Assembly: GCA_900018345.1 (NCBI GenBank)
Contig: FCNA01000143.1
Coordinates: 1 to 58,575, forward strand
Source: Clostridiales bacterium CHKCI006
GTDB lineage: Bacteria; Bacillota_I; Bacilli_A; Erysipelotrichales; Coprobacillaceae
Reading direction: 5' to 3'
Length of the DNA: 58,575 nucleotides
Shown here: positions 40,711 through 45,558 of the stretch, piece by piece
How the letters are laid out: each line of letters starts with the position of its first letter
Numbering within the stretch: position 1 is the stretch's first letter
Made by a program: the position numbers and the translations under genes
The notes under the pieces: generated by a model
What the model was told of the DNA's origin: nothing
Database searches by the model: none
The model's input: only the letters and a program-made list of their open reading frames with translations

Positions 40711-41493
40711 ATGCCAACAACAACGCTGATCGTTCTACTGATTCCTTTTCTGGGAACGACGCTTGGGTCAGGGATGATTTTTTTGGTAAGAGACAAAGTC
40801 TCTGACAAACTTCAAAAAGTGTTATTAGGATTTGCATCCGGAGTGATGCTGGCAGCATCTGTTTGGTCACTCATTATTCCGGCGATGGAAATGGCTGAGC
40901 AAAATGGCAGCAATGTTCTTTTGTCGGTAGCCGGGGGATTATTACTGGGCATGCTGTTTTTATTGGGGTTGGATACCCTTACGCCCCATCTGCATTTGAA
41001 CCATGAGGATCCGGAGGGGATCCACAGTCATTTGAAAAAGCGCACCATGATGCTCTTAGCGGTCACTTTGCATAATATTCCTGAAGGAATGGCTGTCGGT
41101 GTCGTCTTGGCTGGCGCGATGGGCGCCGGACATGAGATGGCGTTTGGCAGTGCTTTGGCGCTTGCCATCGGGATTGCGCTGCAAAACTTTCCGGAAGGTG
41201 CGATTATATCCCTGCCTCTGAAAGGGACGGGCATCAGTTCCTGGAAAGCCTTTATCTACGGCGTTTTATCCGGTGTCGTAGAGCCCTTAGGCGGTTTGCT
41301 GACCATATATCTGACGCGCTTCTTTGTTCCCTGGCTGCCTGCCTGTCTGGCCTTTGCAGCGGGGGCAATGATCTATGTGGTGGTCGAGGAATTGATTCCT
41401 GAATCCCAGGAAGGAAAGCACAGCAATTTACCGACCGTGAGTCTTTTTATTGGTTTTGTGCTGATGATGGTTCTGGATGTAGCACTTGGCTAG
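40711..41493 (+). CDS. ZIP family metal transporter
   Basis: Zinc or other divalent metal importer of the ZIP family (260 aa, eight TM). TM4 holds LHNIPEGMAVGVVLAG and TM5 LQNFPEGAIISLPL, the paired H/N-x-P-E-G metal-binding helices. A His-rich loop (HLHLNHEDPEGIHSH) between TM3 and TM4 is usual in the family. ATG 40711 follows GAGGAGGT. Its promoter carries the palindrome shared with the ygbA-like gene, consistent with metal-dependent repression. The ABC-F promoter begins at the base after its stop. Confidence 0.92.
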   Translation: MPTTTLIVLLIPFLGTTLGSGMIFLVRDKVSDKLQKVLLGFASGVMLAASVWSLIIPAMEMAEQNGSNVLLSVAGGLLLGMLFLLGLDTLTPHLHLNHEDPEGIHSHLKKRTMMLLAVTLHNIPEGMAVGVVLAGAMGAGHEMAFGSALALAIGIALQNFPEGAIISLPLKGTGISSWKAFIYGVLSGVVEPLGGLLTIYLTRFFVPWLPACLAFAAGAMIYVVVEELIPESQEGKHSNLPTVSLFIGFVLMMVLDVALG

Positions 41494-41522
41494 TTGACAA
41501 GTCAGATAGGCTTGTGTATAAT
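41494..41522 (+). promoter_or_regulatory. Consensus sigma-A promoter of the ABC-F gene
   Basis: TTGACA (41494-41499), exactly 17 bp, TATAAT (41517-41522). Both hexamers are perfect consensus, the strongest promoter in the window. It starts directly after the ZIP stop codon; the start site should be near 41529. Confidence 0.85.
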
Positions 41523-41545
41523 GTGAGCTAAAAGGGGATGGAAGG

Positions 41546-41566
41546 ATGTATCATACTTTCTGCTAA
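41546..41566 (+). CDS. Attenuator leader peptide (6 codons)
   Basis: ATG TAT CAT ACT TTC TGC TAA encodes MYHTFC. AAAAGGGG (41530-41537) lies eight bases before the ATG, at the extreme 5' end of the transcript. The codons ACT-TTC-TGC form the left arm of the first leader hairpin, so a ribosome stalled here would open it. This is the expected sensor of a ribosome-mediated attenuator. The leader peptide is inferred; no homologue was checked. Confidence 0.65.
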   Translation: MYHTFC

Positions 41567-41682
41567 AAAATGAAAACGACAAAAATGGTTTGTGAAAGCA
41601 GTGTTTTTGTCATGCGCAGAAAGTGGACATCTGGATATCATGTAAGTAATGACAGGTAGAAACTTTTTACCTGTCTTTTTTT
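41555..41682 (+). promoter_or_regulatory. Ribosome-mediated transcription attenuator of the ABC-F gene
   Basis: Three nested structures. ACTTTCTGC (41555-41563, inside the leader ORF) pairs with GCAGAAAGT (41616-41624). GACAAAAA (41578-41585) pairs with TTTTTGTC (41604-41611) inside that loop. GACAGGTA (41651-41658) pairs with TACCTGTC (41668-41675), followed by T7, a perfect intrinsic terminator. If a stalled ribosome frees AGAAAGT (41618-41624), it can pair with ACTTTTT (41662-41668) and break the terminator. This predicts induction of the ABC-F gene by ribosome-targeting antibiotics. Confidence 0.8.
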
Positions 41683-41702
41683 GTGGAGAGGAGGAGATCA
41701 AC

Positions 41703-43175
41703 ATGTCCATGATTCAAGTCAGCCATTTAACTTTTCATTATGAAGATGGCAGTGAAAATATTTTTGAGGACGTTTCATTTGAGTTGGATACGAGCTGGAA
41801 ATTAGGTTTGACAGGACGCAACGGGAAAGGCAAGACAACGCTGTTTAAGATCTTAAGCGGGAAGCAGAAAGGAAAAGGCACTGTGATCAGTCCGGTCGAC
41901 TATCTGTATTTTCCTTTTCAGATCCAAGATGCGACGCAGTTGACGTTGTTTGTGATCGAAGACCTGTTGGGTGAAGTGGCCTCGTGGCAATTGGAACGCG
42001 AGCTGAATTTATTGGAAGTAGACAGCGAGGTCCTGTATCGTCCTTTCGATACCCTGAGTCAGGGAGAGCAGACCAAAGTTTTACTGGCCAGTCTGTTTAT
42101 TCGCGATGATACCTTTGTATTGATTGATGAGCCGACCAATCATCTTGACTTGAAAGGTCGTGAACTGGTCTCCGCTTACCTGAAAAAGAAAAAAGGCTTT
42201 ATCCTTGTCAGCCATGATCGTGCTTTCTTAGACGGTTGTATCGATCACATCATGTCTTTAAATAAGACGAGCATCGATATTCAAAAAGGCAACTATTCAA
42301 GTTGGGAAGACAATATGTCAAGACGCATGCAGGACGAGAAGAGTCAGCAGCAGCGGTTGAAGACGGAAATCAAAAAAATGGAGAAAGCGAAACGGCAGAC
42401 CGCTGACTGGAGCGATCAGGTCGAGAAGAGCAAGATCGGTGCGGCGGACAAAGGCTACGTTGGGCATATGGCTGCCAAGATGATGAAGCGGTCTAAAAGT
42501 CTGGAGAAACGCCAGCAAAAACACATCGATGAGAAAAAAACATTATTAAGGGATCTGGAGGAGCAGGAAGATCTGAAGATCCATCTCTTGCCCTTGCGCC
42601 GTTCCTATGTGCTAAGAATGACCGGCGTCACTGCCGGATATGAAGCCCCATTATTTGAACCGCTGAGTTTCGAAATGCAACCTCATGATCGCATTGCCCT
42701 GGTGGGCGGTAACGGGTGTGGCAAATCAACACTGCTGCATCTATTGACCAAGGATCAGACGCATTTGCTTTCCGGCAAGATCGAGATCCCTTCCGATTTA
42801 GTCATCTCTTCTATTGCTCAGGATCCCTCATTTTTAAAGGGTCCCATGATTGCCTACGCTGAAGGTGAAGGGCTGGATATCAGTTTATTTTTAGCGATCC
42901 TGGCTAAATTAGGACTGACCAAGGAGCATTTTGAACGACCGATGGAATCCATGAGTCCCGGTCAGCAAAAAAAGATCCTCATTGCAGCCAGTCTGGCCAA
43001 GCCGGCGCACCTTTATATTTACGATGAACCTTTGAACTATCTCGATATCATCAGTCGTGCCCAACTCGAAAAAGTCATCCTGACCTATCAGCCTACGATG
43101 CTTTTTGTGGAACATGATGCGGTGTTTTTAGAAAAAGTCGCTACCAGGCGCATTGAAATGCATCCTTTCGGTTAA
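41703..43175 (+). CDS. ABC-F ribosomal protection protein (Lsa-type)
   Basis: Cytosolic dual-ATPase protein (490 aa, no TM) that binds the ribosomal E site and dislodges antibiotics. NBD1: Walker A GRNGKGKTT near residue 39, signature LSQGEQTK, Walker B FVLIDEPTNHLDL. The linker (~190-290) has ADWSDQVEKSKIG and AAKMMKRSKSLEKR, typical of the Lsa/Eat group. NBD2: GGNGCGKST, MSPGQQKK and LYIYDEPLNYLD. Lsa-type proteins give resistance to lincosamides, pleuromutilins and streptogramin A; that spectrum is inferred here. GAGGAGGAG precedes ATG 41703; longer starts run back into the terminator. The leader attenuator strongly supports a drug-inducible resistance role. Confidence 0.9.
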   Translation: MSMIQVSHLTFHYEDGSENIFEDVSFELDTSWKLGLTGRNGKGKTTLFKILSGKQKGKGTVISPVDYLYFPFQIQDATQLTLFVIEDLLGEVASWQLERELNLLEVDSEVLYRPFDTLSQGEQTKVLLASLFIRDDTFVLIDEPTNHLDLKGRELVSAYLKKKKGFILVSHDRAFLDGCIDHIMSLNKTSIDIQKGNYSSWEDNMSRRMQDEKSQQQRLKTEIKKMEKAKRQTADWSDQVEKSKIGAADKGYVGHMAAKMMKRSKSLEKRQQKHIDEKKTLLRDLEEQEDLKIHLLPLRRSYVLRMTGVTAGYEAPLFEPLSFEMQPHDRIALVGGNGCGKSTLLHLLTKDQTHLLSGKIEIPSDLVISSIAQDPSFLKGPMIAYAEGEGLDISLFLAILAKLGLTKEHFERPMESMSPGQQKKILIAASLAKPAHLYIYDEPLNYLDIISRAQLEKVILTYQPTMLFVEHDAVFLEKVATRRIEMHPFG

Positions 43176-43258: not shown

Positions 43259-43918
43259 ATGCATCAATTATTAGAACGCTATGTCCCCCTGGTACATTTT
43301 TTAGCACAGGCGTTAGGGGAAAATGTCGAGATCGCGTTGCACGATATGACGCTTAAGGATGGCCCTATTGTTGCTTTGGCCAACGGTTTAAGCGGGCGCG
43401 AAGTGGGCTCTACTTTAACTAATCTGGGAAAACATATCATAGAGGAAAAACAATATTTGAAGCAGGATTTTGTCATGAACTATAAATCCCTCAGTCAGGA
43501 TGGAAAACTGCTGCGTTCTTCCTCTTATTTTATTAAAGATGAAAATGGAGAACTCATCGGAATGTTGTGCATCAATGTCAATATTTCGGATTATGCCTAT
43601 ATCAACCAGGCTCTGCAGCGCATCTTAGGCATGAGCACGGAGCCAGAGATGGAGTATGAGATGGAAAATCCGATCGAGATCTTGTCCAATGATTTAGAAA
43701 CGACGATCTCACAATACTGTCAGGAGGCTTTGAGCGACATGGGATGTTTCGATTCATCTCGACTGACGGCTAAGGAAAAACAGCGTGTTGTTTCGTATTT
43801 AAATCAGAAAGGTGTCTTTCAGATGAAAGGCGCTATACATATTGTCGCCAACATCATCCATAGCTCTACCCCAACAATTTATCGCTATTTACAAAATATT
43901 AGAGGAGGTTCGTTATGA
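43259..43918 (+). CDS. YheO/DauR-like PAS and HTH regulator
   Basis: A 219-aa transcription factor. The N-terminal YheO-like PAS domain starts LLERYVPLVHFLAQALGENV and continues with EIALHDMT, NYKSLSQDGKLLRSSSYFI and GMLCINVNISD, all typical of the family. A C-terminal HTH (YLNQKGVFQMKGAIHIVAN, then STPTIYRYL) matches the DauR-type DNA-binding domain. The ligand is unknown. ATG 43259 is used; earlier in-frame codons run into the promoter. Its stop overlaps the pyrophosphatase start by four bases, so the two genes are coupled, which is unusual for this regulator family. Confidence 0.85.
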   Translation: MHQLLERYVPLVHFLAQALGENVEIALHDMTLKDGPIVALANGLSGREVGSTLTNLGKHIIEEKQYLKQDFVMNYKSLSQDGKLLRSSSYFIKDENGELIGMLCINVNISDYAYINQALQRILGMSTEPEMEYEMENPIEILSNDLETTISQYCQEALSDMGCFDSSRLTAKEKQRVVSYLNQKGVFQMKGAIHIVANIIHSSTPTIYRYLQNIRGGSL

Positions 43919-45558
43919 AAGATACCGTTTATGTGAGCGGACATCGTAATCCCGATACGGATTCGATCATCAGTGCGATTGCTTATGCTCACCTGTTGAA
44001 TGTTACAGGCAAATATCATGCCATTCCGGTGCGCTTAGGAGAAGTGAACAAGGAAACGCAGTTCGTTCTCGATTATTTTCATTTAGAAAAACCGGTCTTA
44101 TTGAAAACTGTCAAACAGAAGGTCGAAGATCTGGATTATGATAAGGTGACCCTTTTTGCCAAGGAACTGACTTTAAAGACGGCCTGGGCACTGATGAAAC
44201 AGGGAAATCTGAAATCTGCACCTGTCCTGGATGAAAATTCCCATTTGTTAGGGGTGCTGTCAACTTCTAATATCATTGCCGGTTATATGGATGACTGGGA
44301 TAGCAATATTCTGGCTAAAAGTGGGACTTCCATTGAAAACATCGTGGATACCCTGGATGCTAAGGTGCTGCACCTCAATCGTGATGTCAAGATCTTTAAA
44401 GGTGAGATCCATGTGGCGGCCATGAATAATGAAGAAGCGAAAAAGCGAATCAAAAAAGACGATATTGTTATTGTGGGGGGGGACCGTGAAGAAGCGGTGA
44501 CCATGTTGTTGGATCAGCAGGTTTCCCTGATCATTCTGACAGGATCGCTGACTTTGACACCTGAATTATCCAAGAAAGTCAAAGAAGCCAATATTACGAC
44601 GATCTCCACACCGCATAATACTTTTGTCACTTCACAGCTGATCATTCAGTCCGTTCCGGTGGAATTTGTCATGCAGAAGGGAAATATCACTACTTTCTCA
44701 ACGGATGATACGGTGGATTATATGAAAGAGGTCATGACCGAGACCCGTTTTAGAGCGTATCCTGTTGTTGATCTCAATGGACGTGTTGTTGGAACCTTGT
44801 CACGTTATCAGTTATTAAGTGGTATGCGTAAAAAAGTCATCCAGGTTGACCATAATGAGCGCGCCCAATCCATTCCTGGCTTGGAGGAAGCAGAGATCTT
44901 AGAGATCATTGACCATCACCGTGTGGCCGATATTCAAACGACAGGTCCTGTTTATTTCCGCTGTGAGCCATTGGGTTCGACGGCAACCATTGTCACTAAA
45001 GCTTATCAGGAACAGGGTGTAGAGATTCCTAAAGAGATTGCCGGTGCCCTGTTGAGTGCGATCATTTCTGATACCCTTTTATTTAAGAGCCCAACCTGCA
45101 CACCGGTGGATACCAGGATTGCGAAATACTTAGCCGATATTGCCGGTGTCGATATGGTTAGCTATGCTCAGGAGATGTTTAAAGCAGGAACATCACTTAA
45201 AGGATTCACGGTGGCTGAGATCTTCAATCAGGATTACAAACGCTTCACGATTTCTGATCGCAAGGTCGGCATTGCTCAGGTCAATACGATGGATATTGAT
45301 GGCTTTGCGGAATACAAGAAAGACATGCTTGCCTATATGGATGAACAGGCCCATGAACAGAACCTGGATCTTGTTCTGTTATTACTGACAGATGTCTTGA
45401 ATGCTGCCAGTGTACTGTTCGCGGCAGGTCCAAAGAAAGAAATTGCCAATCGTGCTTTCAATGTGGAACTGAAGGAAAATGAGGCTTTCCTGCCAGGTGT
45501 CATCTCACGTAAAAAACAGGTGGTCCCTGCAGTCACAGAAGCGATTGAACAGAATTAA
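43915..45558 (+). CDS. ppaC: CBS-regulated family II (Mn-dependent) inorganic pyrophosphatase
   Basis: Hydrolyses pyrophosphate (547 aa). The DHH core is split: GHRNPDTDSIISAIAYA (residues 9-25) carries metal ligands, LEIIDHHRVAD has the DHH motif, and SDTLLFKSPTCTP the third metal site. SRKKQVVP near the C terminus is the substrate-binding S-R-K-K-Q of the DHHA2 domain. Between the first two lies a ~240-aa regulatory insert with two CBS halves (LKSAPVLDENSHLLGVLS and FRAYPVVDLNGRVVGTLS) flanking a DRTGG domain (IVGGDREEAVTMLL), which senses adenine nucleotides or diadenosine polyphosphates in known members. AGGAGG precedes ATG 43915. Confidence 0.95.
   Translation: MKDTVYVSGHRNPDTDSIISAIAYAHLLNVTGKYHAIPVRLGEVNKETQFVLDYFHLEKPVLLKTVKQKVEDLDYDKVTLFAKELTLKTAWALMKQGNLKSAPVLDENSHLLGVLSTSNIIAGYMDDWDSNILAKSGTSIENIVDTLDAKVLHLNRDVKIFKGEIHVAAMNNEEAKKRIKKDDIVIVGGDREEAVTMLLDQQVSLIILTGSLTLTPELSKKVKEANITTISTPHNTFVTSQLIIQSVPVEFVMQKGNITTFSTDDTVDYMKEVMTETRFRAYPVVDLNGRVVGTLSRYQLLSGMRKKVIQVDHNERAQSIPGLEEAEILEIIDHHRVADIQTTGPVYFRCEPLGSTATIVTKAYQEQGVEIPKEIAGALLSAIISDTLLFKSPTCTPVDTRIAKYLADIAGVDMVSYAQEMFKAGTSLKGFTVAEIFNQDYKRFTISDRKVGIAQVNTMDIDGFAEYKKDMLAYMDEQAHEQNLDLVLLLLTDVLNAASVLFAAGPKKEIANRAFNVELKENEAFLPGVISRKKQVVPAVTEAIEQN

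Follow-up and report, generated by a model that had tools for sequence, protein, structure and literature searches.

Attenuation of ABC-F genes through short leader ORFs has precedents in vmlR (PMC9226507), cplR (PMC10201436), and Streptomyces leaders (PMC12421871), and this class of mechanism is well established, as a first-pass annotation of the DNA considered here had stated for drug-stalled ribosomes on leader ORFs. The vmlR leader of Bacillus subtilis shares with the present locus a short leader ORF inside an anti-antiterminator hairpin, an antiterminator that is freed by stalling, and an intrinsic terminator ahead of an ARE-ABCF gene; it differs in its subfamily (ARE2), its 3-codon uORF (MIN), a separate pause hairpin, a stem sequestering the Shine-Dalgarno (SD) sequence, and NusG pausing, which has been shown (PMC9226507). 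In contrast, leaders of the type described below have six codons (MYxFSC, or MYHTFC in the locus analyzed), precede Lsa-clade genes and, in the relatives of this locus, have a terminator arm that copies the leader ORF. The Clostridioides difficile gene cplR is likewise a chromosomal ARE-ABCF gene behind a premature terminator, and its leader ORF is essential for induction; however, it is an ARE1 member with a three-codon leader (MR[I/M]) and a terminator stem that also covers the SD, giving strong translational attenuation (PMC10201436). Leader-ORF control has also been predicted for Enterococcus faecalis lsa(A), which belongs to the same ARE3/Lsa subfamily but has a uORF4u leader consensus of MAGN instead of MYxFSC, a comparison made by published consensus alone (PMC10201436). 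Finally, tiaA and are5sc of Streptomyces coelicolor are ABCF genes under ribosome-mediated attenuation, for which start-codon stalling by lincosamide, streptogramin A, and pleuromutilin was toeprinted; they differ from the present case in their subfamily (ARE5) and leaders (MLV and MVGDDDISG) (PMC12421871).

The window, i.e., the whole stretch of 58,575 nucleotides that was analyzed (Clostridiales bacterium CHKCI006, contig FCNA01000143.1), comes from the sole member of its genus among the genomes compared. It contains, on the forward strand, an ABC-F ribosome protection gene of 490 aa (41703-43175) preceded by the SD GGAGGAG. A longer ORF opens at 41649, within the terminator, and the real start is probably elsewhere, at 41703. 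The protein scored 436 bits against NCBIfam profile NF000355, above the cut-off of 380, 654.4 bits against the Lsa profile NF000167, below its cut-off of 750, and 219 bits against the Msr profile. It forms a long branch of its own in the phylogenetic tree and belongs there to the Lsa(B)/Lsa(E) clade (support 100/100). The Lsa-type assignment of the first-pass annotation thus stands by phylogeny and fails on the formal profile score, and because of these two results the gene is named here Lsa-like (ARE3) and is given no named Lsa allele. Judging from its sequence, it is a probable ABC-F gene of the antibiotic-resistance type, with putative resistance function. The region downstream (43259-45558) encodes a YheO-like PAS/HTH regulator and a protein that combines DHH/DHHA2, CBS, and DRTGG domains and is likely an inorganic pyrophosphatase of the CBS type; these genes show no sign of belonging to a resistance unit.

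Transcription of the leader can be assigned to a sigma-A type promoter (41494-41522, forward strand), in which a -35 box TTGACA (41494-41499) and a -10 box TATAAT (41517-41522) are separated by a 17-nt spacer. It matches the consensus at 12/12 positions, is the only such site in the 2.4 kb between 41200 and 43600, and was equaled by none of 200 shuffles of the stretch; the inferred transcription start is at about 41529. The promoters of relatives mostly match at 8-12 of 12 positions, the distance from the end of the -10 box to the leader AUG is 22-36 nt in most of them, and only some of these matches exceed shuffles. Behind the promoter, the SD AAGGGG (41532-41537) lies 8 nt 5' of the AUG of a six-codon leader ORF, MYHTFC-stop (41546-41566; AUG at 41546, stop at 41564-41566), both on the forward strand. 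The ORF and its SD are conserved across relatives, where the latter occurs as GAGGTGGAAGG-ATG. An out-of-frame ATG ORF (MEGCIILSAKK) overlaps MYHTFC, and conservation favours the latter as the putative leader.

Three further segments of the same strand define the predicted switch. Segment 1 (ACUUUCUGC, 41555-41563) covers positions +10 to +18 within the leader ORF and forms the 5' arm of the anti-antiterminator; its partner, segment 2 (GCAGAAAGU, 41616-41624), pairs with it in nine perfect base pairs and could alternatively pair with segment 3 (ACUUUUU, 41662-41668), which lies inside the intrinsic terminator. The terminator (41651-41682) consists of a hairpin of 11 bp (41651-41675, -12.5 kcal/mol) and a U7 tract (41676-41682), and 27 nt separate the hairpin end at 41675 from the gene start at 41703. 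Within the anti-antiterminator loop, the minimum free energy (MFE) structure contains an inner hairpin (41578-41611), possibly an RNA polymerase pause hairpin; relatives often have a hairpin of other sequence in the same place. The promoter, leader ORF, leader-ORF stem, inner stem, and terminator proposed in the first-pass annotation were therefore all recovered.

In RNAfold, the region 41529-41685 folds at -42.9 kcal/mol (z = -4.0), a stability reached by 0/200 shuffles. Unmasked RNA of every length up to 41700 keeps the leader-ORF helix and then forms the terminator. A stalled ribosome was mimicked by masking all nucleotides through leader-ORF position +15, +17, or +30, and for transcripts ending at 41668-41672 the MFE structure then became the antiterminator, with AGAAAGU (41618-41624) paired to ACUUUUU (41662-41668); the alternative pairing that had been read from the letters alone was thus reproduced exactly, and conservation backs it. 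In these masked folds the antiterminator is extended by AUCUG (41629-41633) pairing with CAGGU (41653-41657) of the terminator 5' arm, which is thereby also sequestered, and by a small closing stem. With 7 bp, the 5-bp inner helix, and this closing stem, the antiterminator of the window is weaker than most. From 41674 onward, masked transcripts yield -25.7 kcal/mol for the terminator versus -19.8 kcal/mol for the antiterminator. Since the finished terminator wins by about 6 kcal/mol despite the masking, switching in the window must be kinetic, with the antiterminator forming first; the masked folds presuppose the ribosome footprint and represent structures apart from NusA/NusG and co-transcriptional kinetics. 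Taken by itself, the window has paired-base counts that stand out only modestly (4/150 linker shuffles reach both counts) and are not decisive, so the case rests on comparison, with conservation as the decisive evidence.

A relative of the ABC-F gene is encoded by 27 of the 43 genomes of the same family (E up to 1e-60). The 350 nt upstream of these relatives and of nine more distant ones share a recurring layout: GGTGGAAGG-ATGTATAAATTTTCTTGCTAA, followed by a hairpin, then GCAAGAAAATATATCC, and lastly a terminator with ATATTTTCTTG as its loop and 3' arm. The usual leader peptide is MYxFSC, while others read MYKISC, MINFSC, and similar; L110 and L111 are without a MYxFSC leader. In the relatives this loop and arm repeat the leader ORF over its 3' half, segment 3 being a near copy, so that segment 2 is able to pair with either version. 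The window is the divergent case, most of the leader-ORF copy having been lost from its terminator. When only the DNA similarity of the leader was considered, G042 was the single real homologue, and a second candidate, G010, looked like an A-rich chance match.

Masked folding of 31 leaders predicted the same switch in nearly all, and in 17 of them the antiterminator was still the MFE structure after completion of the terminator. An alignment of 22 leaders gives 95.4% pairing for the leader-ORF and terminator helices (at most 60% in slid controls), with 24 cells of two-sided changes versus 10.1 in shuffles (0/500), and 99.1% pairing for the antiterminator, versus 50-63% when slid. The core columns of the anti-antiterminator and antiterminator vary little, so that these two helices by themselves offer thin covariation. 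The window contributes further covariation: compared with the family consensus, its leader-ORF helix shows four two-sided compensatory differences with all ten pairs still formed; these were read by eye in a corrected register, the MAFFT alignment being one column off. Sequence, folding, and conservation together show three mutually exclusive helices as the predicted architecture.

A covariance model, R1, was built from the 22 leaders, all of one training family. It matches the window's genome exactly once (41529-41681) and 245 genomes of the order 35 times, once per genome. By group, matches occur in 23 of the 43 genomes of the same family, in 12 of the sister family and, in the phylum sample, in two of other orders (G447 and G356). 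Outside the training family there are 14 matches, 12 of them directly ahead of an Lsa-like gene; the remaining two (G073 and G077), weak and ahead of another ABC-F-like gene (L169, 286 bits to NF000355, below the cut-off of 380), were not counted as the same element, since the stretch has an MDRISF leader but no evident terminator. The two sister-family genomes with this MDRISF leader ORF (L169:1513-1572 and L170) carry it right before a different, very divergent ABC-F-like gene, with no terminator evident. None of the 4227 models of Rfam release 15 reached its gathering score in the window, the best weak match being GibS (23 vs 115 bits).

On this comparative evidence, the element is very probably a real, conserved ribosome-mediated transcription attenuator ahead of an Lsa-like ABC-F gene, which it would hold off until translation is blocked early. 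In the off state, segment 2 would pair with the 3' half of the leader ORF (anti-antiterminator), leaving the terminator free: without drug, the ribosome would complete the tiny ORF and depart, the anti-antiterminator would form, and transcription would stop near 41680. In the on state, the leader ORF would be covered and segment 2 would pair with segment 3 within the terminator. A lincosamide, pleuromutilin, or streptogramin A would bring this about by stalling the ribosome at or just past the AUG, where it would cover most of +10 to +18; the antiterminator would then form first and the polymerase would continue into the gene. An antibiotic that stalls ribosomes on the six-codon leader is, from the sequence features, the most likely trigger.

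With regard to how stalling might be specified, the strongest perfect helix has a 5' arm that ends +14 to +23 from the AUG in 39/44 leaders, although segment 2 may start at any point between +37 and +119. That segment 1 stays at a set distance from the AUG while the peptides differ points to the ribosome footprint at the start codon, more than the peptide, as what matters. This spacing fits drugs that halt the ribosome on the start codon or right behind it, as toeprinting has demonstrated on ABCF leaders from elsewhere (PMC12421871), and, as a pattern in sequence, argues against a strict peptide need. The same attenuator might instead depend on a leader peptide whose Cys before the stop codon arrests the ribosome in a sequence-dependent manner with the drug, FSC being selected as peptide. 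Almost every MYxFSC-type member does have Cys (TGC/TGT) as codon 6, and leader identity (MIN) matters to lincomycin induction of vmlR (PMC10201436); however, the conserved nucleotides are those required to pair with segment 2, and codon positions cannot separate peptide from RNA constraint because the same nucleotides serve both. Moreover, the spacing between helix and AUG changes little both where the window has TFC and L095/L099 have FPY/FPD and in L015-L017, where MRK or MKK places the arm past the stop. Peptide-specific arrest has a small chance of being right. L015-L017 are basal Lsa-clade genes with three-codon leaders whose pairing arm lies beyond the stop codon. Another leader class (MKMxxQ...) was observed in L124, L129, L130, and L133, with the pairing arm equally far from the AUG; the upstream regions of these four show no obvious leader-arm copy in the terminator.

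Three other explanations are less probable. Control might be mainly translational, the structure masking the ribosome-binding site of the ABC-F gene, as is partly the case in cplR, whose terminator stem covers the SD (PMC10201436). In the window, however, the hairpin ends at 41675 and is followed by U7, so that the SD (about 41685-41696) lies outside it, and the full-length fold shows only weak pairing between the U-tract and the SD; mainly translational control is very unlikely. It is less likely still that the hairpin does nothing more than terminate the upstream ZIP transporter transcript, or belongs to a passive 5' leader, with no switch: the ZIP ORF does end at 41493, adjoining the promoter, but a consensus promoter sits between it and the terminator, and many genomes that differ further upstream have kept the whole set of leader ORF, alternative helices (both), and terminator ahead of the same gene. 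Hardly credible is amino-acid attenuation, i.e., readthrough triggered without drug by a ribosome starved at a Cys or Tyr codon, for although members often have a Cys codon ahead of the stop, it is one codon only, is missing in several of them, and precedes a gene for an Lsa-clade ribosome protection factor with no tie to Cys metabolism.

A leader of the same type precedes the mobile gene lsa(E) on the Enterococcus faecium plasmid pY13 (L184:237-447, NZ_KR936172.1), with GGAGGTGG and the peptide MYNFSC; it matches R1 at 30 bits (E = 7e-4). As in the window, the anti-antiterminator, antiterminator, and terminator are predicted in the same order, here with an antiterminator core of 12 bp. It differs from the window in that the masked-fold antiterminator is clearly more stable than the terminator and about 150 extra nt separate terminator and gene. 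The leader is found at 99% identity or more in at least 106 plasmid records, and the searchable literature, which leaves out most subscription journals, holds no description of it. A stretch in another genome of the order (L132, G090:C14) matches 2.5 kb of the lsa(E)-lnu(B) segment at 96.6% identity and may represent a lineage near the donor or an old transfer. Lsa(B) (L183) was rejected as a leader carrier, its upstream region being different (R1 E = 0.026).

The first-pass annotation had suggested that the leader peptide and structure may be new while the class of mechanism is not. The class is well established, with ARE-ABCF attenuators such as vmlR and cplR already known, and novelty of the leader holds provisionally: neither the MYxFSC-type leader nor Erysipelotrichia ABC-F leaders are described in the searchable literature, with subscription papers mostly outside it. 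What is added here is the Lsa-clade leader class and its distribution, together with the connection to lsa(E) and the divergent version that the window carries. We lean slightly toward a broader reading, in which the attenuator would be an ancient part of the Lsa clade, a single drug-sensing leader defined by the distance between arm and AUG rather than by the peptide; it would have spread over several orders by descent or by transfer along with the gene, and would also be the undescribed control element of lsa(E). What began as a guess from a single sequence is thereby an RNA element that is conserved and for which a computable model exists. The MYxFSC, MYHTFC, MRK, and MKMxxQ leaders, with the arm about equidistant from the AUG, provide a natural comparison for judging whether the peptide has any role in lincosamide/pleuromutilin sensing. 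The attenuator model also predicts that mobile lsa(E) would be drug-inducible, which, if true, would affect the reading of susceptibility tests.
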